A stretch of DNA of 62,909 nt from Candidatus Halobeggiatoa sp. HSG11. Lineage in GTDB: Bacteria > Pseudomonadota > Gammaproteobacteria > Beggiatoales > Beggiatoaceae. Both the position numbers and the translations under genes were made by a program. Every line of letters starts with the position of its first letter. The stretch's first letter is position 1. The stretch spans positions 1 to 62,909 of the forward strand of contig JAUCGL010000007.1 in NCBI GenBank assembly GCA_030378105.1. Direction: 5' to 3'. A model generated the notes under the pieces. That model was not told where the DNA came from, did no database searches, and saw nothing but the letters and a program-made list of their open reading frames with translations. Shown here piece after piece: positions 1 to 12,679 of this stretch.

Positions 1-128
1 ACAGATTGGAGGTGCAGAACGTATAAAAAATGAGTTAAAATCGGTACTTGCAAATGCTTAAGTTCATAAACCTTTGTTTGGTGGCTATCAGAGAGCTAAT
101 TAAATAATTTGGGGAAACCTTTAAGTAT
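1..128 (+). mobile_element. End of an insertion sequence (partial copy 1)
   Basis: The first ~126 bases are, by eye, identical to the reverse complement of 61960-62087 in the IS copy at the far end of the window. The segment holds the last codons of a transposase, then a terminal region whose outer end reads TTTGGGGAAACC, matching the inverse TTTCCCC end of the other copy. Only the transposase 3' end and one IS terminus are inside the window. The exact outer boundary is uncertain because the match runs on to about 126-128. Confidence 0.75.
2..61 (+). pseudogene. Transposase 3' end (partial, cut by window edge)
   Basis: Reading from base 2 gives 19 codons and a TAA, ending GGAERIKNELKSVLANA. 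This is the same C-terminus as the transposase on the minus strand at 62027-62444. The rest of the gene lies outside the window, so whether this copy is intact cannot be judged. Confidence 0.7.
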
Positions 129-738
129 TAAGATACCAATTAGGAATAGGCATCCAATCGGTACGTAAATAAATCTGATGTTGAGGTGCTTTACCTGCAT
201 CATGGTCATATTTTTTATCAGTAGATTTTTGCAAGGCGTAATTACCTAAAATACTGATTTTTTTAGTCAATTTCCACCTAGCTTCTATTTCTAAACCACG
301 TCCAACCTGACTATCAGCATTATGCACGGTAAAATTACTGATAACAACATCTGGCTGGGATTCAATTTGGGAACGGATAACATCATCTATCTTGTAAGTG
401 AAAAGGTTTAAAACAAGATTCAGATATTCAGTAGCACGATAATCAAAAGCCAATTCCCAAGTCTGAATATTCTCGGGTTGTAAATTAGGATTACTTTTTA
501 TTATTGGGCTTTCAGCATAAAGATTTGAAAATGAGGGAGCTTGAAAAGCACTACCGTATAAAAGTTTACTGGTTAAATTGGGACGAATTTGCCAAACAAT
601 GGCCAAACGTGGATTGATTGTTGTACCAAAATCAGAATAATGATCATAGCGTACGCCAGCAGTCAATTCCCAATCCGCATTTAAAGTCCAAGTATCTTGT
701 AAAAAAATATATTTGTTTCCGCGATCCGTTTCTCTCAC
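121..738 (-). pseudogene. TonB-dependent outer-membrane receptor fragment
   Basis: The 205-codon frame resembles the C-terminal beta-barrel part of a TonB-dependent receptor. It alternates aromatic and polar residues and carries typical barrel motifs (GVRYDHYSDFG, NPRLAIVWQ, GSAFQAPSFSNLY, NLQPENIQTWELAFDY). The signal peptide, TonB box and plug domain are absent: an in-frame stop lies five codons before the GTG at 738. The 3' end stops at the IS junction near 121, after PIPNWYLNT, without the usual C-terminal aromatic signature. It is read as a remnant broken at both ends, with the IS responsible for the 3' loss. The original substrate (siderophore, cobalamin or other) cannot be told. Confidence 0.8.
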
Positions 739-829
739 GAAAGCATAATTCTACTTTGTCAAATTTAACAATTTGAAAAATATATATAATATTGTTAAAA
801 TGGCTAATTTAACAAATTATTATGACTAA

Positions 830-1160
830 AAAAATGATACATATCAAAGAGCAAATTATTCATCCGAAAATTTATACGACATAGCAAAACATTTAACAGA
901 ATTTTGTGTACGATTTTCGTCACTATTTGTTGGTCAAACAAATACACGGGAAAAACCATTATTTCAGTATATTAAAGGTTTGATTCAGGCAGAAAAAGGT
1001 AGAAAAAACATGGAACACATGGCAGAAATAGTACCTGTTACAAATAGTCAATCAGTAACAACATTTTATCAGTGAATCTGACTGGGATGAAAGGGAAGTT
1101 TTGAATCAAGTTGCCAAAGAAGCAGATGCTCAATTGGGTGGAAAAGAGGATAGCTCGTAG
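830..1160 (+). pseudogene. Decayed IS701-like transposase, N-terminal fragment
   Basis: A frame opening after the stop at 827-829 reads AKHLTEFCVRFSSLFVGQ and YIKGLIQAEKGRKNMEHMAE. It reaches TGA at 1073-1075, and the +1 frame continues FISESDWDEREVLNQVAKEA to a stop at 1158-1160. That order (a 'YLKGLL...ERKN...MAE' block, then 'SDWDERxVxxQVAxEADxxLGG') is the usual N-terminal region of IS701-type DDE transposases. No start codon is in frame, a frameshift is present and the catalytic core is missing, so this is a dead fragment. Its last codons run into the inverted-repeat element that starts at 1157. Confidence 0.65.
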
Positions 1161-1298
1161 GGTGGATAGGAGTGAAGCGGAAATCCACCAATTCATCATG
1201 TCACCATACAAAACAAATGTTTAAAGAAAAAATTTTAAACGTGTATATATAATATTGTTGTTGGTGGTGGATTTCCACTTCGCTTCTATCCACCCTAC
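1157..1298. repeat. MITE-like element with 33-bp terminal inverted repeats
   Basis: The left arm at 1157-1189 (beginning GTAGGGTGGATAGGAGTGAA) and the right arm at 1266-1298 (ending TTCTATCCACCCTAC) are inverse copies with three mismatches in 33 bases. The ~76-base core has no coding sequence. A single related arm recurs at about 30836-30868. The element directly follows the transposase remnant and precedes the duplicated sulfotransferase end. Confidence 0.7.
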
Positions 1299-1319
1299 CA
1301 TATTGGTGAAGTTACTCTT

Positions 1320-1413
1320 TTATATCCCTTTCGCCCGATACAAATCAACATCCACCACTTCAGAACATTTCTGCACATCTAACCCACCATCCAAAAACTC
1401 ATTTAACTGCTCA
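1320..1413 (-). pseudogene. Duplicated 3' end of the PDE-TPR-sulfotransferase gene
   Basis: This ~94-base stretch matches 3489-3580 almost base for base. On the minus strand it encodes EQLNEFLDGGLDVQKCSEVV and DVDLYRAKGI before a TAA, against EQLNEFLDGALDVQKCAEVV and DVDLYRAKGK in the intact gene. The few differences include two Ala codons that read Gly and Ser here, so it is the tail of a diverged paralogue rather than a fresh copy. Nothing upstream of the shared segment continues the protein. The reverse-transcriptase gene lies exactly between the two copies. Confidence 0.8.
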
Positions 1414-1425
1414 TCAACAAGCCAT

Positions 1426-1481
1426 TTACCATAATGGTAAAAAGTTTTACCATAACGGTAAAAATTACCATTTTGGATAAT
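1426..1481. promoter_or_regulatory. Three phased palindromes upstream of the reverse-transcriptase gene
   Basis: Three related inverted repeats follow one another: TTACCATAATGGTAA (1426-1440), TTTTACCATAACGGTAAAA (1445-1463) and a weaker ATTACCATTTTGGATAAT (1464-1481). Their centres are about 20-21 bases apart, two helical turns, so dimers bound to them would lie on the same face of the DNA. The array sits about 145 bases before the RT start codon. It could be a repressor/activator operator or iteron-type sites; no protein can be assigned. Confidence 0.5.
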
Positions 1482-1625
1482 ATATTTTGTGCTAATTAAT
1501 TGGCCCTATTTTCAATAATAAATTAGTGTAAACAATCAGTTAAAGTTAATTTTATTTAGTTGGAACACTTTTCGCTATATAGGGGACATTAGGTATTTTT
1601 TTTCCCTTAATTTGGAGATAATTTA

Positions 1626-3299
1626 ATGAACCAACCTTTACTTGAGCAATTAAGCTCATTTGAAACTCTACAATCAGCAGCCGATTGGTTAAAAACCGAT
1701 TGTCCTCAATATCAACCAGATTTAGATGTTTTAGCTGCTAAACTTGAATCTGGAGATTATTGTTTTCAACCTCTAACCACTGTGCAAAAAACCAATAAAC
1801 TTGGTGAATCTGAGACTTTGGAAGTCTGGGAAGCCCAAGATAGATTGGTGCTTAAAGCCATGAGTTTGGTGTTAAAAGACCATTTGAGCGATGAATTATC
1901 CACTTGTTGCCATCATTTGGAAGGCCGAGGTGGAATTAAGAAAGCGGTACGCAAGACTCGGGAATTTATTCAAAATAATCCTGAATCTTGGGTATTAAAG
2001 ACTGATGTGCAAGGTTATTATGCTCATATTGACCATATGGTGCTGTATAACCAGTTGCAAGCGTTAATTCCTAATGAAGATTACCTATTACGCTTAACTT
2101 GGCAATTTTTGAAACGTACTGTGTATGATGGTGGAAATTATTATGACCGTGACCAAGGAATCAGTTTAGGTTCACCGTTATCGCCACTAATGGCTGCGTT
2201 GTATTTGACTCCGTTGGATGAGGCTTTTGACGATAAAGAGTGGTTTTATGCTCGGTTTATGGATGATTGGGTGATTATTACTCCGACTCGCTGGAAGTTG
2301 AATTCTGCGGTGAAAAAGGTTAATATGATTCTTAATCAACATAAATTAACGAAGGCTTATGATAAAACTTTCATTGGCCGGAGTTCAAAAGGTTTTGATT
2401 TATTAGGGTATCATTTCACGCCTGAGTCATTGACTATGGGCAAAAATTCATTGCAACGCCGTGATGCACGCATCCCCCAACTTAACGAGCAAGGTGCGGA
2501 TGAGGTTCGCATTGGGGAGTATGTATCACGTTGGCAACAGTGGGCGAAAGCTGGTTTACAGGATCAGTTGACGGAGACTAAGGAATTTAATTATATTCCG
2601 CGTCAAGCTGATTCAAGTAAATTACCGTTAGAAGCTAAATTCCTTGCGTTGGGGATCGCTTCTGTTATGAGTACGGCAGCTTTTGACTCGCATGCGACAA
2701 TCTTGCAATTAGGAGAAGGGACGACCACTACGACATGGGGGTGTGTCTTATCATCTGCGTTCTATATCTACAATGCTAATACTGCCTCTTTCAGTCAATA
2801 TTATTGGGGTGCTGGAAATCAATTCTATGCCAACCCCGGAGTGTGGATATATAACGCCACAGGGGGGTTCTTTCCTACAGGGGATTCATATGAATTTTAT
2901 GGGAATACTTCACTCACTTCGGCCCAAACCTCACTCGCTGTCACTGAATTCAACAACTCAACTGCGGCCCAACAAATAGTAGTGATTCAAGACCCTAATT
3001 CATTGGAATGGGGATGGGTACGATATAATGTTACACTGGCCTCATTTAATAACATTGCGAGTAATGACATTAAAGGTATTATATCCTACGGCATTTCTAC
3101 TGATGGTTCTGTAAAACCAACTTTAGCAAATACAACTGGCCTAACTACTACTGATTGTTCTGGTCCTACCGCTGTCGCGGCTGACATTAACAATCCCGTT
3201 GTCACTTTAGTGCTTGGGGCAGCGTTTTCAGGGATTGGAGCCGCCGCTATCCGAAAACGGAAACTTAAATTGCAAAGTGATGATAAACCACTTGATTAA
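1626..3299 (+). CDS. Reverse transcriptase fused to a secreted/anchored-type C-terminal region
   Basis: 557 aa. Residues ~60-320 are an RNA-directed DNA polymerase: RT motif 3/A KTDVQGYY (Asp127), motif 4/B QGISLGSPLSP (177-187), catalytic FMDD (211-214) and LLGYHF (259-264). The catalytic aspartates are present, and no maturase or HNH endonuclease domain follows. The motifs look closer to group-II-like or unclassified RTs than to DGR RTs. In frame from ~333 comes a stretch like a signal peptide (KFLALGIASVMSTAAFDSHA), then ~160 residues rich in Ser, Thr, Asn, Tyr and Gly, like an exported protein. The end is a hydrophobic helix (~525-541) followed by RKRKLK, resembling C-terminal sorting/anchor signals. 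SD GGAG lies 9 bases before the ATG. Whether the fusion is functional, or an RT gene joined by deletion to a former surface-protein gene, is not decided. It lies between the two copies of the sulfotransferase 3' end. Confidence 0.85.
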   Translation: MNQPLLEQLSSFETLQSAADWLKTDCPQYQPDLDVLAAKLESGDYCFQPLTTVQKTNKLGESETLEVWEAQDRLVLKAMSLVLKDHLSDELSTCCHHLEGRGGIKKAVRKTREFIQNNPESWVLKTDVQGYYAHIDHMVLYNQLQALIPNEDYLLRLTWQFLKRTVYDGGNYYDRDQGISLGSPLSPLMAALYLTPLDEAFDDKEWFYARFMDDWVIITPTRWKLNSAVKKVNMILNQHKLTKAYDKTFIGRSSKGFDLLGYHFTPESLTMGKNSLQRRDARIPQLNEQGADEVRIGEYVSRWQQWAKAGLQDQLTETKEFNYIPRQADSSKLPLEAKFLALGIASVMSTAAFDSHATILQLGEGTTTTTWGCVLSSAFYIYNANTASFSQYYWGAGNQFYANPGVWIYNATGGFFPTGDSYEFYGNTSLTSAQTSLAVTEFNNSTAAQQIVVIQDPNSLEWGWVRYNVTLASFNNIASNDIKGIISYGISTDGSVKPTLANTTGLTTTDCSGPTAVAADINNPVVTLVLGAAFSGIGAAAIRKRKLKLQSDDKPLD

Positions 3300-3368
3300 A
3301 CAAAAATAATAATTGTTTCTCATTCCCTACTATGATGTGGGAATTCTCTCCTTGTTGTTACCCATTTT

Positions 3369-3469
3369 CTCGTTCCCAACGTCTTCGTTGGAAATGATTT
3401 CTGCAACGCTCCGCGGTGCGGGACGCAGAGCGTCCCCAACTGCATTCCCAACCAGCGGTTGGGAACGAG
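3369..3469. repeat. CTCGTTCCCAAC inverted-repeat element
   Basis: CTCGTTCCCAAC at 3369-3380 pairs with GTTGGGAACGAG at 3458-3469. The ~77 bases between contain further self-complementary pieces (CGCTCCGCGG, GGGACGCAGAGCGTCC). Related pieces occur at 30784-30812, 43103-43122/43233-43250 and 61789-61880. It fills the gap between the convergent RT and sulfotransferase genes and may act as a bidirectional terminator. Confidence 0.6.
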
Positions 3470-3488
3470 TGAACTCCATTTATTTCAA

Positions 3489-6266
3489 TTATTTCCCTTT
3501 CGCCCGATACAAATCAACATCCACCACTTCGGCACATTTCTGCACATCTAAAGCTCCATCCAAAAACTCATTTAACTGCTCAATATTCAGCAATGGATTT
3601 TGAATAACATCCTGATGTTTCACATATATCACATCAATATTTGGTTGCTTACGAATCCAAACTTGAATCCGATGCAATTGCTGTTGAAAAGTTTGAGCCA
3701 ATTTTTCATTCTCTTGCCCATCTTTATCCAGCATAGTCTGCTGAGATTGTAAAACTTCGTTTATATCTCGCAACATAAAAATGACTCGATAATGATAACC
3801 CTTATCCAAAGCCGCCAACAATTGAGCGATAACTTTCACAACTTTACCCTGAGCTTCAGCTAAACAACTTTTATCCTTACCCAAATTCTTAATAGCCTCA
3901 AGTTCAAAATAACCTTTGGGATTGTTTTTGTCAGCTTCCCGCTTAGTATCGGTTAACAGATTCATACCACCAGTTTGTAATATCTGCATCATCATCGAAG
4001 TCCCAGAACGTGGCAGACCAGAAACAATGGTGATAATTTTCTCTGGACTGATTCCAGCCAATTTTTTGACATTAGCCTGTTCCAAAATGGTTCCCAAAGT
4101 ATTTTTATCAGTTGATGTTGAAGCAGGAGCCGCACCTTGTTCAGGAACTTCCACAATTTTATCAATCATTTGCTGATGTTGAGCGGACTTCATAGCCTCG
4201 TTCAAATGACGCTGATAAATATCGACCAATCTTTTATGAGCTTTCCGTAATCCGGGAGCCTGAGTAACTGCAACTTCCCATGATTGGGCAGCCATTTCAA
4301 AACGTCCTAACCGATAAAATGCCTCTCCCAAAAAGTAATGAGCATTTGGATTATGATAAATTCTACCAACCGAATCCATTAAAGTTTCAGCCGCATCATT
4401 AAATTGCCGCATTTGAATATAAACTTGACCTAAACCAGCTAATGCCGTTGCACTATCCGGGTCAATTTCCAAAGCTTTAAAAAATGCTTCCTCAGCATCT
4501 TGTAATTGCTTCATTTTCAAATAACTATGGCCAATATTGATATGTAAATCTGGTAAGCGTGGATTAGCAGTTTTAGCCTTATTGAAATGCTCCAAAGCTT
4601 TCTCTGGATTCTCTTCAGCCAAATAGAGATTACCCTGCAAAAGTTCCATCGTTGGACGATTATTTTTCCTTATCTGCTCTAACAAAGTGGCATCATCAGG
4701 CAGTTCTGGAACTTCTTCTTTTATCTCTTTACCTTCCTGTTTAAGTTTTTCCAACTGTTCTTGTTGCTTCTTGTAATTATCCTTTATTTCTTGCACTTGA
4801 GCCTTTTCAGATTCGATAATACTTTTGTCAGTTGTTTCTCTTGCAGCAGCTATTCGTCCTAAATTAAGATAAACATTAGCCAACCGCAATCCAAACCGAC
4901 TTTGATCTGGATATTTAGCAAACAGCTCCTCTAACAATGGCAAAGCATTCGCATAGTCATTTTTACTCAAATAAACTCTTGCTAAATAATACTTTGATTC
5001 CCTTGCATTATTTTCCACCGTTTTCTGAACATTATCACCAGGTGGTTCAATATAACCCAAAGCCACCAATTGATCTAAAGCTTCCTGTTCCATCCAAGGG
5101 TCTTGTTTTTCACCAACTGGGTGCATACCACAATTACCTTCAACTTTTTCCCAAGAATCTATCATTTTAAGTTCTGGTTTTTGTTGGAAAGCTTGCAATA
5201 AAGGCCGACCATCCATATCCTGACCAGTCGGTAAATCAAACATAGTCAACACTGTTGGAGTTATATCTAACAAAGTGGAACCATAGATTAGTTCATCCCG
5301 TTTGATATTTGGGCCTCGCATCGCAATCATCCCATAAGGACTGTGTTCCGCAGCCGGACCAGCCGGTTCATTTGGCAATTTTATCGGACGCAAGTGATCG
5401 GGATGAAAACCATGATCGGAACAGATAATAACTGTCGTATCCTCACCAGCCAATTGTAATAAACGTTCCAACATCATGTCATGGAAACGATAGCCAGCTT
5501 CTACCACACCATTGTAGAAATCGTATAATTCTCGTGGAATGCCTTCCCGATACGGTGGATGGAATTTCATAAATCCATGACAATAATGGTCAATCGCATC
5601 GTAATAGACAGCTAAAAAATCCCATTCTTCATTTTCCATTATCCAAGTGGCTGCTGCGTGCATGGAACTTGCTTCGGCAGTTATTTTAGCGATGGAACGC
5701 AACCGTTGGTCTTTGGTCTGGTCAACCTTTTCCATATTTGGTACAAATGGAGCAATATGATTAGCGGTCAATTCTTCGGGATGAACTCTACATTCAGCTA
5801 AAATATCAGCTAATTCAGGTGGATGAACAGTACCTGGAGCCATTTTCCATTCATCGTCCAAGCTACCTGTTGAATGGTGATAAAAGTTGGAAATACAGAC
5901 ACCATTGATAGGGTCAGCTGGATGGCTAGGCCACCAACCAATGACATGGCTTTTATAACCTTCCTGCATCAAAATATTCCAAACAGCTTTCACTTTGCGA
6001 GAAGTTGACAGAACTGGTTGAATTCCTGAGCCATCTTCCCGAGGTTGAGTAAAACCCATAACACCATGTTTATCTGCGGTTTTACCAGTTCCGATTGAAG
6101 TCCACATAATTGGCGATAATGGTGGATCGAGAGTGGCTAAATTGCCCATCACACCTTCACTGATAAATTTTTTCAAAGTCGGCATTTTACCAGCGTCAAT
6201 TAATGGGTGCATGGCTTTCCAATCTGCGGCATCCCAGCCTATGAGTAAAACTTTTTTCTTAGTCAT
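3489..6266 (-). CDS. Alkaline-phosphatase-superfamily phosphodiesterase / TPR / sulfotransferase fusion
   Basis: 925 aa from the ATG at 6264-6266, preceded by an AAGGAA ribosome site. Residues 1 to ~430 are a type I phosphodiesterase/nucleotide pyrophosphatase domain with metal motifs LLIGWDAADW near the start, PPLSPIMWTSIGTGKTADKH and CSDHGFHPDH. Residues ~435-735 are TPR repeats interrupted by a charged coiled-coil stretch (KKQQEQLEKLKQEGKEIKEE). From ~745 a sulfotransferase domain begins with the PAPS 5'-phosphate loop GLPRSGTS (750-757). No signal peptide is seen, so a cytoplasmic protein is likely. The family knowledge suggests transfer or removal of phospho/sulfo groups on glycans, lipids or proteins; the substrate is unknown. 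The start overlaps the stop of the small upstream gene by 8 bases, so the two are probably translated together. Confidence 0.85.
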   Translation of the reverse strand: MTKKKVLLIGWDAADWKAMHPLIDAGKMPTLKKFISEGVMGNLATLDPPLSPIMWTSIGTGKTADKHGVMGFTQPREDGSGIQPVLSTSRKVKAVWNILMQEGYKSHVIGWWPSHPADPINGVCISNFYHHSTGSLDDEWKMAPGTVHPPELADILAECRVHPEELTANHIAPFVPNMEKVDQTKDQRLRSIAKITAEASSMHAAATWIMENEEWDFLAVYYDAIDHYCHGFMKFHPPYREGIPRELYDFYNGVVEAGYRFHDMMLERLLQLAGEDTTVIICSDHGFHPDHLRPIKLPNEPAGPAAEHSPYGMIAMRGPNIKRDELIYGSTLLDITPTVLTMFDLPTGQDMDGRPLLQAFQQKPELKMIDSWEKVEGNCGMHPVGEKQDPWMEQEALDQLVALGYIEPPGDNVQKTVENNARESKYYLARVYLSKNDYANALPLLEELFAKYPDQSRFGLRLANVYLNLGRIAAARETTDKSIIESEKAQVQEIKDNYKKQQEQLEKLKQEGKEIKEEVPELPDDATLLEQIRKNNRPTMELLQGNLYLAEENPEKALEHFNKAKTANPRLPDLHINIGHSYLKMKQLQDAEEAFFKALEIDPDSATALAGLGQVYIQMRQFNDAAETLMDSVGRIYHNPNAHYFLGEAFYRLGRFEMAAQSWEVAVTQAPGLRKAHKRLVDIYQRHLNEAMKSAQHQQMIDKIVEVPEQGAAPASTSTDKNTLGTILEQANVKKLAGISPEKIITIVSGLPRSGTSMMMQILQTGGMNLLTDTKREADKNNPKGYFELEAIKNLGKDKSCLAEAQGKVVKVIAQLLAALDKGYHYRVIFMLRDINEVLQSQQTMLDKDGQENEKLAQTFQQQLHRIQVWIRKQPNIDVIYVKHQDVIQNPLLNIEQLNEFLDGALDVQKCAEVVDVDLYRAKGK

Positions 6267-6459
6267 TGTTTGGTTCCTTATTATCTGATTCTGGTTCAGT
6301 TTTTTTCCAATGAGAAGGTTCGCCAGCATCTTTGCGAGCTTGTCGCCATATTTGTAGACCAACATGTCCTAAGGCTAATAAGCCCAAAGCTCCTTCTGGC
6401 GGAATGTCCATTGTTTCACCATTTGGCGAGATAAGTTTTGGTTTGTCTGGAGTTGTCAT
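6259..6459 (-). CDS. Small protein coupled to the phosphodiesterase-sulfotransferase
   Basis: 66 aa, no family recognised. The N-terminus is polar (MTTPDKPKLISPNGETMDIP), the middle is a short hydrophobic helix (GALGLLALGHVGLQIWR) and the C-terminus is charged (KKTEPESDNKEPNND). Its stop overlaps the start of the downstream 925-aa gene by 8 bases, which supports it being real and co-translated. It could be a partner or regulator of that enzyme; nothing in the sequence states its function. Confidence 0.6.
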   Translation of the reverse strand: MTTPDKPKLISPNGETMDIPPEGALGLLALGHVGLQIWRQARKDAGEPSHWKKTEPESDNKEPNND

Positions 6460-6610
6460 TGAATTTAATTAATAATTTTATTTGGTTGGAGAAATGTTAG
6501 GTTTTATGTTAACCTTGGTATACTTTTTTTAGCACAATTAATTAATATTTTAAATCAAAATTCGTCTTTTTGAAAGAGTTCTATAGACATTCATTAAAAT
6601 ACATTTGTGT

Positions 6611-6643
6611 GAAATCTGCAAGATTTTGGAAACCTGTCAGGTC
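6611..6643. repeat. Degenerate AAACCTG...CAGGT hairpin copy
   Basis: GAAATCTGCAAGATTTTGGA followed by AACCTGTCAGGTC is a decayed member of the hairpin family seen intact at 27442, 32436, 41731 and 53581. It lies in the ~400-base gap 6460-6863, which otherwise holds only the small pseudogene at 6735. Confidence 0.4.
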
Positions 6644-6734
6644 TGAAAACTTTTATTTTTCTGAAGAGCTATAATCTTAAAGAGGTTTTTGAACCATGCT
6701 ATAATTAATCAAAAATGAAAATGATGAACTAAAA

Positions 6735-6827
6735 ATGACAGACGAAAAACTAAAAGAACTAGTTGGTAGTTTAGCTATAGCTTAAAAACAAACTGATATT
6801 CAATTAAAAGAAGTAGCTGAACAGTAA
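6735..6827 (+). pseudogene. Remnant of a small DUF3782-like N-terminus
   Basis: MTDEKLKELVGSLAIA, stop (6783-6785), then KQTDIQLKEVAEQ, stop. The pattern 'MTDEELKELVxSLAIAQKxTDxQLKE' is the usual start of small PD-(D/E)XK-associated proteins. The internal stop looks like a CAA-to-TAA change. The downstream nuclease part is absent. Confidence 0.4.
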
Positions 6828-6863
6828 TTGTATTTTTTGTATTTTCAATAACTTAAGATTTGA

Positions 6864-7658
6864 CTACAAATTTTCTATCTGCTCAACAGACAAGCCTGTC
6901 ACCTCCATAATAGTTTTCACAGCTACTTTAGCTTCTTTCATGTTTTTAGCCGCTATTAACATTCCCTTCTCCATACCTTTATTCATGGCTTTTTGAGTTT
7001 GTTCTTGCATATACTCCTCATCGGAATATTCATCTTTCATCCGAGCATATTCTTGTGGACTTATTTTGTCTGTTTTAATCAACGAAAAGATTTCTTGAAT
7101 AATCTCATTTTGATAATCACTTTCTTCAATTTGTTCTTCTAAACTATCATCTATAACTTTTAACCATTTTCGATAAGGTTCAGGAGTTTTATCAGTAACA
7201 TATTTTGGACAGAGATAAACAATTTTATGTTCAGTTTCCGCAATGCAAGTACCATCCAATTTTTTTGGTCTGAAATCAGTGATTAATATATCAGTTTTAT
7301 GTTTATCACCAGAAGTTAAAACAACAATTGTATAAACCTGCATATCCGGCTTATAATTAGCAGAACTGGTGATTTGTTCGATTAAAGCCACGTTGTGATA
7401 GTGAAGAAAACGGTCATAGTGGTCTTTGTAGCGTTTATGTTGAATATCAATAATTAACCGATTCTTAGTATCTTGAGCAAATAAATCAAACCGACTATCC
7501 ACACTTCCGACAATTGGAGAAAAAGACTTTTCTGTTTCGACTTTATCAATTTCAATTTCTATCCCCAGTATATCTTTTGCAAATGCGGTGAAGATATATG
7601 GTTTAGAAAATACTTTTTTAAATATCACGCCATAGCGTAAAGATGCAACTTTTATCAT
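6864..7658 (-). CDS. Rpn/PD-(D/E)XK family nuclease-transposase-like protein
   Basis: 264 aa. The N-terminal third matches the PDDEXK_2/Rpn (recombination-promoting nuclease) family: LRYGVIFKKVFS, then SVDSRFDLFAQDTKNRLIID with IQHKRY, the D...xIQ variant of the nuclease core. The C-terminal ~70 residues are acidic and helical (ARMKDEYSDEEYMQEQTQKA, then MNKGMEKGM repeats), as is usual for these proteins. Such genes are abundant in genomes rich in mobile DNA, and experimentally studied Rpn proteins nick DNA and promote RecA-independent recombination. It stands alone, with long non-coding gaps on both sides. It appears complete. Confidence 0.8.
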   Translation of the reverse strand: MIKVASLRYGVIFKKVFSKPYIFTAFAKDILGIEIEIDKVETEKSFSPIVGSVDSRFDLFAQDTKNRLIIDIQHKRYKDHYDRFLHYHNVALIEQITSSANYKPDMQVYTIVVLTSGDKHKTDILITDFRPKKLDGTCIAETEHKIVYLCPKYVTDKTPEPYRKWLKVIDDSLEEQIEESDYQNEIIQEIFSLIKTDKISPQEYARMKDEYSDEEYMQEQTQKAMNKGMEKGMLIAAKNMKEAKVAVKTIMEVTGLSVEQIENL

Positions 7659-7852
7659 GTTATAACCTATTTATTGGTATAATGTTGTTCCAAGAATAAC
7701 ATAAGTTTTATCTACATTAATCTATTAAAATGATAATTCATTCCAAATGTTGATCAGCATTGAGAATTTTAAAAAACTTCCACCCTAAAAAGTATTATAA
7801 GCTCATAAATGATTATAGTCGATATATAAAATATGAGGTAGCCCTATAGAAA

Positions 7853-7910
7853 GTAGTGATAGCTTCAAAAAACCTACTAGATTTCAAAAGCCTAGTTGGT
7901 TTAACACTAC
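7853..7910. repeat. GTAGTG...CACTAC 58-bp palindromic element (copy 1)
   Basis: Begins GTAGTGATAGCTTCAAAAAA and ends TTAACACTAC, with inner arms CCTACTAG and CTAGTTGG. The same layout occurs at 17630-17688 and, partly, at 60218-60268. All three lie upstream of genes (here 94 bases before uvrA), so a cis-regulatory or transposon-like origin are both possible. Confidence 0.6.
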
Positions 7911-8003
7911 CGTACATCAATCAATCGGAAAATGCTATAGGACTTAAATAATGTTTATTTGAACTGCTTTAAAATTAACTCTCCTGCCCATACATAATAC
8001 TTC

Positions 8004-10832
8004 ATGAAAACCATAAGTTTACGTGGAGTACGCACCCACAATTTACAAAACATCAACCTTGACATACCGCGCGATAAATTAGTTGTTATAACTGGTTTAT
8101 CCGGTTCAGGTAAATCATCCCTAGCTTTTGATACCATCTATGCAGAAGGCCAACGCCGCTATGTTGAATCCTTATCTGCCTACGCTCGCCAATTCCTTTC
8201 CATAATGGAAAAACCGGATGTAGAACATATTGAGGGCTTATCACCAGCTATCTCAATAGAACAGAAATCTACCTCCCACAATCCACGCTCAACCGTTGGT
8301 ACCGTCACCGAAATTTACGATTACTTACGCCTCTTATTCGCCAGAGTTGGCACTGCTCATTGTCCCCAACACGGCACTTGTTTACAAGCTCAAACCATCA
8401 GCCAAATGATTGATCAGGTACTAGCTTTACCAGAAGGCTCACGGTTAATGTTACTTGCACCCCTCATCAAAGAGCGAAAAGGAGAGCATATAAAAATAAT
8501 AGAATCATTGCAAAAACAAGGATTTATACGAGCAAGAATAGATGGTGAGATTATCATGTTGGATGATCCACCAAAATTGACCCTCCATAAAAAACATAGC
8601 ATAGACGTAGTTATAGACCGATTTAAAGTGCGTGATGATATAAGATTGCGATTAACTGAATCATTTGAAACAGCTCTCAAACTTGGTGATGGTTTAGCTC
8701 AAATCATTGCTATGCAAGATAATTCTGTTCCAGATTTAGCTTTTTCCTCTCGTTACTCCTGTCCTGAATGTGGTTATAGCGTCAGTGAAATAGAACCACG
8801 CCTATTTTCTTTCAATAATCCAATGGGAGCTTGTCCAACCTGCGATGGTTTGGGGATTAAGCAATTTTTTGATCCAAATAAAGTAGTTACTAATGCAGCA
8901 GTTAGTTTAGGCGATGGAGCGGTGCGAGGTTGGGACAGCAAAACAGCTTTTTATTTCCAAGCTTTGGAAGCATTGAGCAAACATTATAAGTTTGATTTGC
9001 ACTTACCATTTGACCAACTTCCTGAATATATTCGCAATATTATTTTATACGGCAGTGGTAACACTGTTATTAATATGGTGTATCACAAGGAAGAAACTGG
9101 AACAACTTTCACTCGCAAAAAACCATTTGAAGGCATAATTCCTAATTTGCAAAGACGCTATCGGGAAACAGAATCGAATGCAGTGCGAGAGGAATTGGCC
9201 AAATATTTAAGCCAACAACCTTGTTCCGACTGTCAAGGTACTCGTTTAAATGAAGCAGCCCGACATGTATTAATAACTGGTCATAATTTACCACAGCTAA
9301 CGACCTTACCTATTGAACAGGCTCAAAAATTTTTTGCTAAGTTAAAGTTACCCGGCCATAAAGGCAAGATTGCTAAAAAGATTTTAAAAGAGGTCAATGA
9401 AAGATTACAATTTTTGATCAATGTTGGGCTGGAATATTTGAGCTTAGATCGCAGTGCTGATACTTTATCTGGTGGAGAAACCCAACGAATTCGATTGGCT
9501 AGTCAAATAGGAGCTGGTCTGGTCGGAGTCATGTATGTGCTGGATGAACCATCAATTGGTCTGCATCAACGGGATAATAAACGTTTGTTAGACACTTTGA
9601 TTCATTTGCGAGATTTAGGCAACACTGTGATTGTGGTTGAACATGATGAAGAAACAATTCGAGCAGCAGATCATATAATTGACATTGGGCCAGGGGCTGG
9701 CATACATGGCGGAGAGATAGTTGCACAGGGCAAATTGGCCAGTATTGTTAAAACTAAAAAATCTGTTACTGGTCAATACCTGTCCAAAAAAAGAAAAATA
9801 GCTGTTCCTAAACAAAGACAACCAGTTATTAAAGATAATTTTTTATATTTACAAGGAGCAACTGGCAACAATTTGAAAGCTATCAATTTGGAGCTACCAC
9901 TTGGCTTAATGACCTGTATAACTGGTGTATCCGGCTCTGGCAAATCTACTTTAATTAACGATACTTTATATCCAATCACCGCCAACTCTTTAAATCGGGC
10001 TAATTTGGAAGCTGCTGGTTATGATGCAGTTAAAGGTTTGGATTTATTAGATAAAGTTGTGGACATTAACCAAAGTCCAATTGGCCGAACTCCACGTTCT
10101 AATCCAGCTACTTACACTGGAATTTTCACACCAATTCGAGAGCTATTTGCCGCCACTCCAGAAGCTCGTTCCAGAGGTTATAAAATTGGGCGATTTAGCT
10201 TTAATGTCAAGGGTGGTAGGTGCGAAGCTTGTCAGGGAGATGGGTTGATTAAGGTCGCAATGCACTTTTTACCAGATATTTATGTTACTTGTGATGTTTG
10301 CAAGGGGCAACGTTATAATCGGGAAACTTTGGATATAAAATATAAAGGAAAAACAATTCACGAAGTATTGGCCATGAGCGTTGAAGAAGCAAGGGATTTC
10401 TTTTCTGCTATTCCTGTATTGATGCGTAAATTGCAAACTTTAATGGATGTGGGTTTATCTTATGTAACTTTGGGGCAAAATGCTGTTACTTTGTCTGGTG
10501 GTGAGGCACAGAGGGTTAAGTTATCAAGGGAGCTGTCAAAAAGAGATACTGGTAAAACTTTATATATTTTGGATGAACCCACTACTGGTCTACATTTTCA
10601 TGATGTAGAACTGTTGTTGAATGTGTTGCACAGGTTGCGAGATCATGGCAATACGATAGTGGTTATTGAGCATAACTTGGATGTGGTGAAAACTGCGGAT
10701 TGGATTGTTGATTTGGGGCCAGAAGGTGGTGAGAAAGGTGGTCAAATAATAGCGACTGGAACTCCAGAAGATATTGTTGCTATTAAACAATCTTATACTG
10801 GGCAATTTTTGGGAGAGGTTTTGGAGAAATAA
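8004..10832 (+). CDS. uvrA: Excinuclease ABC subunit A (UvrA)
   Basis: 942 aa, the usual UvrA length. This ATP-dependent damage-recognition subunit starts nucleotide excision repair with UvrB and UvrC in the cytoplasm. Two ABC ATPase modules are visible: the first Walker [10 protein letters not shown] at 31-39 with its signature [16 protein letters not shown], the second GVSGSGKST with [15 protein letters not shown]. CxxC zinc pairs are present (CPECG...CPTCDG and CEACQGDG...CDVCKG). The start ATG gives [20 protein letters not shown], the normal N-terminus. It is apparently monocistronic. No anomalies. Confidence 0.98.
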
Positions 10833-10920
10833 GAGAGTAGTTCTAGTCTGTCAAAAAACAGCCTATATTGTGGCATATCAACATTGAATTATGAGAAATT
10901 TACATTATACAATATTTATT

Positions 10921-11829
10921 ATGCAAAAAAATAAAATGAAATTACTATTTGGAATATGTTGTATTTTGAGTTTGGGTTTAATTACTCCTATCCATGCAGG
11001 TGAAACTGGACACTACAAAGGTGTTATAAGAGGTATCAAAGCTGCAACTCTCCCACCACCTGGATTTTATTATGTCGCCTATAATGTTTATTACAACAGT
11101 GATACATCAATGAATCAACACGGTGATGAAAAAAATATTGGTTTTGATTTAAATAGTGTTGCCTTGTCAAATAGATTAGTTTGGATTACTAACCAGAAAA
11201 TATTAGGTGCAGATTTTGGAATGAATATGGTTATTCCATTGGTTAATACTGATATTGAAATTGATGCTTTTAATGTCCAAGATGAGCAATCTGGGATAGG
11301 TGATGTTTTTGTGGAATCATTTTTAGGTTGGCACGAAGCTCGTTATGATGCAACTATTGCTGTTGGTTTGTACATGCCCACTGGTGATTATGATGTCCAT
11401 GAACCGGCTTCGCTTGGTAAAGATTTTTGGACTGCTATGCTTTCATTAGGTGGAACTTATTATTTTGACAGTAAAAAATTGTGGTCATTATCTATTTTAG
11501 GACGTTATGAAACTCATAGTGAAAAAGATAGTGTTGATGTAAAGCCCGGCGATGATTTTGGATTTGAATGGGGACTTGCTAATGCCGTAACTCCTACTAT
11601 AGATATGGGTGTTACCGGTTATGCACATTGGCAGGTAAGTGATGACAGTGGTTCGGCAGCAACTTGGGATACAGATGTTCATGATCAAGTTTTTTCTATC
11701 GGACCAGAAGTTAAAATATTTATTCCTTCAATAACATCATTTGTTACGGTTAGGTTTCGTAAAGAATTTGGTGCTGAAGATCGGGCTGAAGGACAAATGC
11801 TAACTTTAAGTTTGGCTAAAAGATTTTAA
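10921..11829 (+). CDS. Outer-membrane protein of the MetA-pathway-of-phenol-degradation/SphA-like family
   Basis: 302 aa from the ATG at 10921. In-frame ATGs at 10891 and 10936 are alternatives, none with a clear ribosome site; the signal peptide MKLLFGICCILSLGLITPIHA favours 10921 or 10936. After cleavage comes a repeated beta-strand barrel starting LPPPGFYYVAYNVYYNSD, with internal VGLYMPTGDY and SIGPEVKIF typical of 'transporter, phenol MetA' outer-membrane proteins. It ends SLAKRF with a terminal Phe, as outer-membrane barrels do. It lies 1 base before the prenyltransferase gene and heads a three-gene operon. The substrate is unknown. Confidence 0.75.
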   Translation: MQKNKMKLLFGICCILSLGLITPIHAGETGHYKGVIRGIKAATLPPPGFYYVAYNVYYNSDTSMNQHGDEKNIGFDLNSVALSNRLVWITNQKILGADFGMNMVIPLVNTDIEIDAFNVQDEQSGIGDVFVESFLGWHEARYDATIAVGLYMPTGDYDVHEPASLGKDFWTAMLSLGGTYYFDSKKLWSLSILGRYETHSEKDSVDVKPGDDFGFEWGLANAVTPTIDMGVTGYAHWQVSDDSGSAATWDTDVHDQVFSIGPEVKIFIPSITSFVTVRFRKEFGAEDRAEGQMLTLSLAKRF

Positions 11830-11830
11830 C

Positions 11831-12679
11831 ATGACCGATAAAACAACTTTTGTTAAAGCACTACGTCCATTTTCTTTGATCGTTGCTATTGCTACCTGTG
11901 GTTTAGGAGTTAGTTTAGCACTGATTGAAGGAATAGAAAATTTTGGGTTAGTATGGTTGGTGATGATTACCGGAGTTTTATTGCAAGTAGCCGTTAATTT
12001 AACTAATGATTATCAAGATATTAATAATAAACAATTTACCGAGGTACAGCTACAAGCCATTAATCGTAATACTAAAATTGGCTGGATGATTATGTTGCTT
12101 GCAATAATACTTGGGTTATACATGGTTAGTATCAGAGGTTGGCCATTATTATTATTAGGTATTGTTGGGATATTTGGGGCGTGGGGTTATACAGGTGGAC
12201 AAATCAATTATAAAAATCGTGGACTGGGTGTGTTACTTGTTTTTTTGTTCATGGGAGTTTTATTGATAGGGGGTTCCTATTATGTTATTGCAGGAACTTA
12301 TCATTGGAATATCTTCTGGTTATCCATACCATTTAGCCTATTATCATCATTATTATTATTAAGTAATGAACTACGTGATTATGAAACAGATTTAGCAGAT
12401 GGTATCAAAACCTTAAGTGTTCGTTTAGGCTATTCGATTGGAGTAAAATTATATTATTGGTTAGTTGTGTTGACTTATATGGTCAGTGTCTTGCTCTATC
12501 AAGCTAATATTTTACATGGTATTATTTTGATATTAATCACTATGTTAGTCCTATGGCAACCACTAAAATTATTGAATACAGCTAAAAAACAACGCTACCG
12601 CCTAACCAGCTTAACCGGTCGCTTTTATTTTATTTACAGTGTTGTTTATATCGCAACAATTTGGATACCATTACCATGA
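11831..12679 (+). CDS. UbiA/MenA-family prenyltransferase
   Basis: 282 aa, about eight or nine membrane helices. Both aspartate-rich motifs of the UbiA superfamily are present: NDYQD (59-63) and the second around RDYETD (Asp183, Asp187), which bind the Mg-diphosphate of the prenyl donor. The AWGYTGGQINYKNRGLG stretch resembles MenA (dihydroxynaphthoate polyprenyltransferase). No other menaquinone gene is in the window, so the aromatic acceptor is uncertain. It lies 1 base after the outer-membrane protein gene and overlaps the BASS transporter by ATGA. Confidence 0.8.
   Translation: MTDKTTFVKALRPFSLIVAIATCGLGVSLALIEGIENFGLVWLVMITGVLLQVAVNLTNDYQDINNKQFTEVQLQAINRNTKIGWMIMLLAIILGLYMVSIRGWPLLLLGIVGIFGAWGYTGGQINYKNRGLGVLLVFLFMGVLLIGGSYYVIAGTYHWNIFWLSIPFSLLSSLLLLSNELRDYETDLADGIKTLSVRLGYSIGVKLYYWLVVLTYMVSVLLYQANILHGIILILITMLVLWQPLKLLNTAKKQRYRLTSLTGRFYFIYSVVYIATIWIPLP

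Follow-up and report, generated by a model that had tools for sequence, protein, structure and literature searches.

The described systems closest to the locus analysed here are DGRs, the DRT/Abi reverse transcriptases (RTs), the group II intron and G2L4 RTs, and the known RTs of unknown group 4 (UG4), and the locus shares features with each of these. Like DGRs, it places an RT beside one surface or binding protein, of which the displayed part is variable and the rest constant; in addition, a DGR RT (8ub7) is among the solved folds that it matches, and a Fib_succ_major fragment lies near one UG4 locus. DGR RTs typically carry an SQ motif, whereas the aligned UG4 RTs have an invariant SP in its place and are another class. 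Also unlike DGRs, UG4 loci come without a template repeat wherever one was searched for; an adenine preference was not significant. Specifically, no template repeat was found for the tail of the protein described here in its own draft genome, for the partner gene of a set of E. coli plasmids (set A) in 5,426 genomes, its own included, or for E. albertii in the locus or in the plasmid collection, and no Avd gene is named in the annotations of the plasmid loci. With DRT/Abi RTs, UG4 shares a listing in PADLOC and the general RT fold (DRT9 and DRT2 were among the matches), but the corresponding NCBIfam models stayed below their cut-offs (Drt3a at 58 of 200 bits, Drt2 at 43 of 390), and the UG4 partner resembles a surface protein. 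Group II intron and G2L4 RTs gave the best structural and NCBIfam matches, but an exported-type tail replaces their maturase part here, with no further Pfam domain. The known UG4 RTs belong to the same class by profile, and their fimbrial association is already in print: passages of PMC8934634 associate fimbrial genes with 66% of UG4 in complete genomes, and mention that one member was formerly named 'group II like 4'. Among the matches listed, the open-licence PMC literature contained no report of an in-frame exported tail, a facing PEP-CTERM layout, a hypervariable partner or a mutational hotspot for UG4, and neither UG4-linked hypermutation nor RT–surface protein fusions were found there.

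Here, we describe a UG4 RT that continues in frame into an exported-type protein, encoded in a 62,909-nucleotide stretch of DNA from Candidatus Halobeggiatoa sp. HSG11 (contig JAUCGL010000007.1), which we call the window. On balance, although not firmly, sequence comparisons lead us to favour the reading that the RT is held in one chain with the exported protein that it serves, and that it would act as a cis-acting diversifier, DGR-like without being a DGR.

The fusion gene and its two halves

A reading of the window made from sequence alone (the sequence-only reading) had described one open frame of 557 codons with complete RT motifs, and all of these (KTDVQGYY, QGISLGSPLSP and FMDD) were recovered (Table 1). 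Judged by its sequence, the RT half is a member of the uncharacterised class UG4: the RT_UG4 model of PADLOC matched residues 32-312 at 3e-86, with the next model at 4.3e-41, and it was the best PADLOC match in 10 of 10 further members tested. Pfam recognised RVT_1 (5.9e-18) at residues 70-264 and no other domain in the protein, and the best NCBIfam match of the fusion (group II intron/group II-like) reached 118 bits against a cut-off of 300. AlphaFold2, run with 24 aligned UG4 proteins, gave a confident model for residues 1-311 (pLDDT of at least 90 in 275 of all 557 residues), and with this RT part Foldseek retrieved group II intron RTs best (7k9y, 6ar1), followed by G2L4 (9d4s) and DGR RTs. 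S186 and P187 are invariant across the same 24 proteins.

The second half had been called exported in type, and it agrees with that description in so far as AlphaFold2 draws helices at residues 335-351 and 524-550, at low confidence, and the protein ends in a basic tail. Segments 315-330 and 332-557 had pLDDT values below 50, and the structure of the tail was not usable. No Pfam family matched the tail, and the sole sorting signal to appear in it, PTPA-CTERM, stayed below its cut-off (11.5 bits against 29, E 0.27; NCBIfam). The tail does match that of a fusion protein in another genome (G011; E 1.9e-12), as well as an orphan tail on contig C45 of the window's genome (E 6.7e-15). We propose that it is exported and anchored, on the basis of its two helices, its basic end, and the fimbrial-adhesin or PEP-CTERM ends of the partners in its relatives. 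A promoter and terminator scan of window 1200-3500 returned six promoter-like sites, compared with 6.3 expected, and no terminator; among the listed frames of window 1-12000, no fimbrial genes were recognised by eye. A short interspersed repeat-like stretch (ctgcattcccaaccagcggttgggaacgag) lies 3' of the fusion gene, at window 3361-3480.

Table 1. Features of the fusion locus, in positions of the window.
Feature	Position	Strand	Basis or remark
UG4 reverse transcriptase–exported protein fusion, 557 aa, single uninterrupted ATG frame	1626..3299	+	
GGAG, possible ribosome-binding site, 8 nt 5' of ATG	1614..1617	+	read from sequence
RT domain, residues 1-311	1626..2558	+	PADLOC RT_UG4 3e-86; AlphaFold2 pLDDT mostly >90; Foldseek
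Catalytic FMDD, residues 211-214	2256..2267	+	M212, D213 and D214 invariant in 24 aligned UG4 proteins
3' end of RT coding part (thumb), proposed cis element	2481..2545	+	aligned with four C41 array units; function inferred
Hydrophobic helix, signal-anchor-like, residues 335-351	2628..2678	+	AlphaFold2 helix at low confidence; sequence
Ser/Thr/Asn/Tyr-rich body, proposed exported hypervariable domain	2679..3194	+	homology to G011 tail and C45 orphan tail
C-terminal hydrophobic helix and RKRKLK, residues 524-550	3195..3275	+	AlphaFold2, low confidence; sub-threshold PTPA-CTERM match
958-aa neighbour gene (MTKKKVLLIGWDAADWK...)	3489..6365	-	synteny marker, outside the system

Recurrence of the pair, fused and as separate genes

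An RT and an exported-type tail share a single frame in the window's own genome (G000, two cases), in a genome of the same genus (G001, two), in G058 (two), in G011, and in Cedecea and Klebsiella. The second RT-tail protein of the window's genome, of 506 aa, is encoded on contig C244, and contig C322 holds a thumb remnant joined to a repeat-rich frame of 2569 codons. The fusions of Cedecea and Klebsiella sp. BIGb0407 are open frames of 723 and 707 codons, respectively. As a refuting case, the sequence-only reading had named homologues that match one half only; the G011 homologue, an open frame of 1246 codons, matches both the RT and the tail of the window protein. The window and G011 loci look orthologous in sequence, because the RT match and the tail match are accompanied by the same neighbour gene: the 958-aa gene has an orthologue-like counterpart of 61% identity beside the G011 fusion (L041 1155-3962). 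A paralogue of this gene (43% identity) stands beside a gene array on contig C41 of the window's genome (L145 14-2668). The catalytic motif of the G011 protein is FMDE instead of FMDD, and its RT may therefore be inactive. This RT is also apparently interrupted by repeat-like short insertions that keep the frame (L041 4279-8016). The recurrence of two-part homologues supports the new RT architecture that had been suggested for the window; the other origin offered with it, two genes joined by deletion, finds no support, because these homologues recur with different tails.

Tail-less UG4 genes of 305-346 codons were also found in the family (G009, G013, G018 and G025). In a survey of genomes, RT_UG4 was met in 11 of 42 from the family, 11 of 398 drawn from the phylum and none of 14 controls, where the accepted E value (up to 1e-30) admits some other RTs and the window's genome is counted in both samples. 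One of the 62 loci of a viral collection (L222) was full-length UG4-like, and had no exported neighbour by the crude rule used below.

The pair of an RT and an exported protein also exists elsewhere as separate genes. Six plasmid records (two from E. coli, and one each from Serratia, Salmonella, Burkholderia and Aeromonas) carry chaperone-usher genes, then a UG4 RT, then an open frame, and this frame 3' of the RT is exported by the crude rule in 4 of their 5 distinct loci. In G237, the gene 3' of the UG4 RT has the fimbrial adhesin domain MrpH_C (Pfam); most partner genes are named adhesin here by position, and neither the set A nor the set B gene after the RT has a Pfam family above cut-off. 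Conjugative plasmids make up 35 of the 51 records of plasmid relatives. A facing arrangement was found in Desulfobacterales, Rhodopirellula, a Verrucomicrobia MAG and others: here the partner gene begins with a signal-like segment, is oriented towards the RT, and either overlaps the RT 3' end or lies within about 200 nt of it. Among these facing genes, Pfam found PEP-CTERM at cut-off in L157 and below it in L148, and VPDSG-CTERM below cut-off in L175; PEP_CTERM was above the NCBIfam cut-off in L162. In a Planctomycetota MAG, a fragment with a Fib_succ_major domain (4.3e-21) accompanies the UG4 RT at a short distance (L158 2657-3091, minus strand).

By a crude rule, 28 of 44 UG4 loci have an exported gene abutting the RT 3' end, compared with 15 of 65 loci of other RTs (Fisher 2.7e-5). 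Dropped from this count were 3 UG4 and 12 other contig-edge cases, along with middle-score and partial-RT loci; the 28 include the doubtful L037, L159 and L178, and loci of the same family are non-independent. The other 16 of the 44 UG4 loci have no exported neighbour by this rule. An earlier, looser rule (32/52 UG4 loci vs 28/84 of other RTs, without edge cases) was abandoned because it admitted shadow frames. As for existing annotations, the UG4 RTs of L102, L109, L119 and L121 are annotated 'transposase', and the gene after the RT is missing from the gene annotation of L101, L103, L104 and L115. In Vibrio campbellii (L113, L114), the UG4 RT is annotated as two genes, near a TcfC-type gene.

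Variation between homologues and in near-identical plasmids

In eight pairs of homologues that were compared, the RT halves are 86-98% identical, compared with 22-58% for the tails or adhesins. At the DNA level, identity between the two G058 copies is 0.78-0.98 in the RT part, 0.38-0.50 over the roughly 180 bp that follow it, and 0.65-0.88 again toward the anchor. Cedecea and Klebsiella share 79.5% DNA identity up to the RT end, followed by about 1.06 kb without similarity and by a stretch of 76% identity that covers the end of the frame and continues past it. In the E. albertii pair L115/L123, the RT region is 98.4% and the operon 88% identical, and the adhesin is without an aligned piece longer than 150 bp. 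A steady RT half combined with a very variable surface half suggests, as far as such sequence comparisons go, an enzyme that mutates the surface protein linked to it. Two further candidate signals were set aside. Synonymous sites change less at the RT 3' end, but this depression is weak and limited to the window's genus, being absent in G058 and inconsistent in enteric pairs, and was not taken as proof of a cis element. Third-position composition is more even in tails and adhesins than in the RT in many loci, and was dropped as evidence because other fimbrial subunits vary too.

Present-day variation was followed in three sets of E. coli and E. albertii plasmids (sets A to C), that is, not in the window's own gene; the RT frame is open in all ten of their records. 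Set A consists of six near-identical 84-kb E. coli plasmids, with four substitution sites, of which three belong to the 594-bp gene that follows the RT. Within the 12.2 kb common to all six, there are three substitution sites, all in that gene and one with three alleles, and besides these a few single-base indels. A longer comparison, over 40 kb of three of the plasmids, gave no substitutions other than two of these three sites; including 26 kb of a fourth plasmid brought in one more site, outside the 594-bp gene. In set B, an E. albertii plasmid pair, 12 of 12 substitutions over 16.8 kb lie in the probable adhesin, where they hit 9 codons and change the meaning of 6. Sets A and B together thus have 15 of 16 substitution sites in the gene directly after the RT. 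In set C, another E. albertii plasmid pair with an open RT, 1 of 6 substitutions in the 13.0 kb shared is in the adhesin. All 16 adhesin sites of the three sets lie 103-310 nt past the RT stop, in genes that extend 609-763 nt past it. Under uniform placement, the probabilities are 1.2e-5 (40.5 kb) or 1.2e-4 (the 12.2 kb seen in all six) for set A, 3.7e-17 for set B and 0.30 for set C; the site counts and p values assume independent sites, which would not hold if a single recombination event had introduced several changes. All 12 changes of set B may have arisen in this way, although no donor for them was found among 72,556 plasmids. Uninformative were three further plasmid pairs, with no substitutions across the 16-17 kb compared, and a Vibrio pair with a split RT, which had one, elsewhere; the single difference of a near-identical Zetaproteobacteria pair lies about 1.7 kb past the RT.

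As controls, we used pairs in which the RT has decayed. In Erwinia persicina, which retains only an RT remnant, 3 of 17 substitutions in 8.4 kb are in the adhesin (P 0.26). The E. albertii pair L293/L294 is without an RT gene, except that in L293 a decayed RT 3' end (5570-5767) precedes the adhesin of the fimbrial operon. The pair has 130 substitutions, 122 of them within one tract of about 1.75 kb that begins before the adhesin and extends past its end; changed adhesin codons are 18 synonymous and 24 other, and A/G and C/T sites are about equally frequent (37/111 and 35/111 at 5500-7400). Neither control has the hotspot pattern of sets A and B. C/T sites number 0 of 16 in the RT-intact sets compared with 35 of 111 in the L293/L294 control (p 0.006). 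A-bearing sites number 10 of 15 compared with 64 of 111, with the direction of mutation unassigned; this difference is not significant (p 0.59), and adenine specificity was not used as evidence. Among RT-less E. albertii operons, the adhesin is identical in 7 of 12 records, and in the others adhesins of 81.9-93.2% identity accompany operons of 91.8-99.7% (for example, a 93.2% adhesin in a 99.7% operon). Adhesins of RT-less E. albertii therefore outpace their operons, so that selection and recombination act on adhesins anyway, and the plain recombination tract of the RT-less control rules out that all fast adhesin divergence is RT-driven.

Proposed mechanism and competing explanations

On the reading that we favour, UG4 RTs would be dedicated diversifiers of one surface protein encoded at the 3' end of the RT gene. 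This protein would come in three layouts: as an in-frame fusion, as in the window; as the next gene, where it would be the last gene of a fimbrial operon and a probable tip adhesin; or as a facing gene near or overlapping the RT end, some of these being PEP-CTERM proteins. In all three, a transcript running past the RT gene would cover the partner, in sense or antisense. The RT transcript would continue through the sequence of the exported protein, and the RT made from that message would act on it in cis, close to where its own coding part ends. The stretch that follows would then be copied with errors, and the cDNA would replace the chromosomal copy, probably with no separate template repeat, none having been found where searched. 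The result would be an RT that stays constant, an outer domain that varies and an anchor end that is conserved, which is the pattern seen when several of the loci are compared. As for the fusion, its RT part would remain cytoplasmic, with the first helix starting export of the tail. That UG4 is a second, separate class of retro-diversifier, which acts in cis, free of template repeats, on a target past the RT gene end (here within one polypeptide), is a wider claim that we advance tentatively, as a possibility that falls somewhat short of probable.

The main competitor is that ordinary diversifying selection and recombination vary the exported proteins, and that the UG4 RT co-travels with them for another reason. 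The RT-less E. albertii adhesins that outpace their operon by way of a recombination tract speak for it, as does set C, with one of six substitutions in the adhesin. We nevertheless judge it unlikely, if still a serious contender, given that substitutions elsewhere than in the gene after the RT number one in set A and none in set B, that set B has no donor, that one site has three alleles among six plasmids, and that C/T sites are missing. A conserved-variable-conserved DNA pattern, moreover, recurs in Enterobacteria and, among Beggiatoa relatives, in both the fusions and the array.

The RT could also be a membrane-anchored, DRT-like defence enzyme, with the tail a phage-facing sensor or effector made variable by an arms race, as the place of UG4 among the PADLOC candidate DRT proteins and the 35 of 51 plasmid-relative records on conjugative plasmids might suggest. 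We consider this improbable: the partner is the last gene of an usher operon (one with MrpH_C) or a protein with a PEP-CTERM-like end, rather than a known toxin or nuclease, and the NCBIfam DRT models are far under their cut-offs. More improbable again is a retroelement that inserts itself or shuffles cassettes before surface-protein genes, the RT being the invariant leading part of what would be a mobile unit. In favour of such a unit, DNA similarity between the copies in G000 and G001 is limited to the RT and no more than about 200 bp before it and ends where the RT ends, and RT remnants precede RT-less genes; but the tails are mutually homologous, merely very diverged, the downstream flank of Cedecea and Klebsiella is collinear, and whole-cassette exchange leaves the single-base changes of sets A and B unexplained. 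The draft state of the assemblies, finally, could point to a chance fusion or assembly artefact, to which we assign next to no probability and which we reject on account of the two-part homologues present in several separate assemblies.

If true, the diversifier reading would assign a role to an RT class that is known chiefly for lying among fimbrial genes, and targeted RT mutagenesis would no longer be limited to DGRs but would include a system that stores no template. The same reading would offer an explanation of why fimbrial end genes vary on plasmids and why anchored proteins vary in several phyla.

A candidate for the cis element comes from contig C41 of the window's genome, where five RT-less secreted-type genes stand in tandem (L145 3830-9845), and upstream of each lies a frame-broken stretch of about 70-145 bp that matches the RT 3' end; four of the units were recognised by alignment to that end, and the fifth by pattern and frames. 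The RT-like stretches are 85-93% identical between units and the conserved gene ends 79-95%; between the gene bodies no DNA similarity was detected, and their proteins are 42-58% alike over aligned parts. A 27-base core (at most 3 mismatches) occurs five times in G000, always within the C41 array, three times in G058 and once in G003; it was found in none of the other 8 of the 11 genomes searched, and never in reverse orientation. Going by its sequence, the 5' stretch of the C41 units could be a recognition site for an RT acting in trans, or could reflect the shared descent of recent copies.
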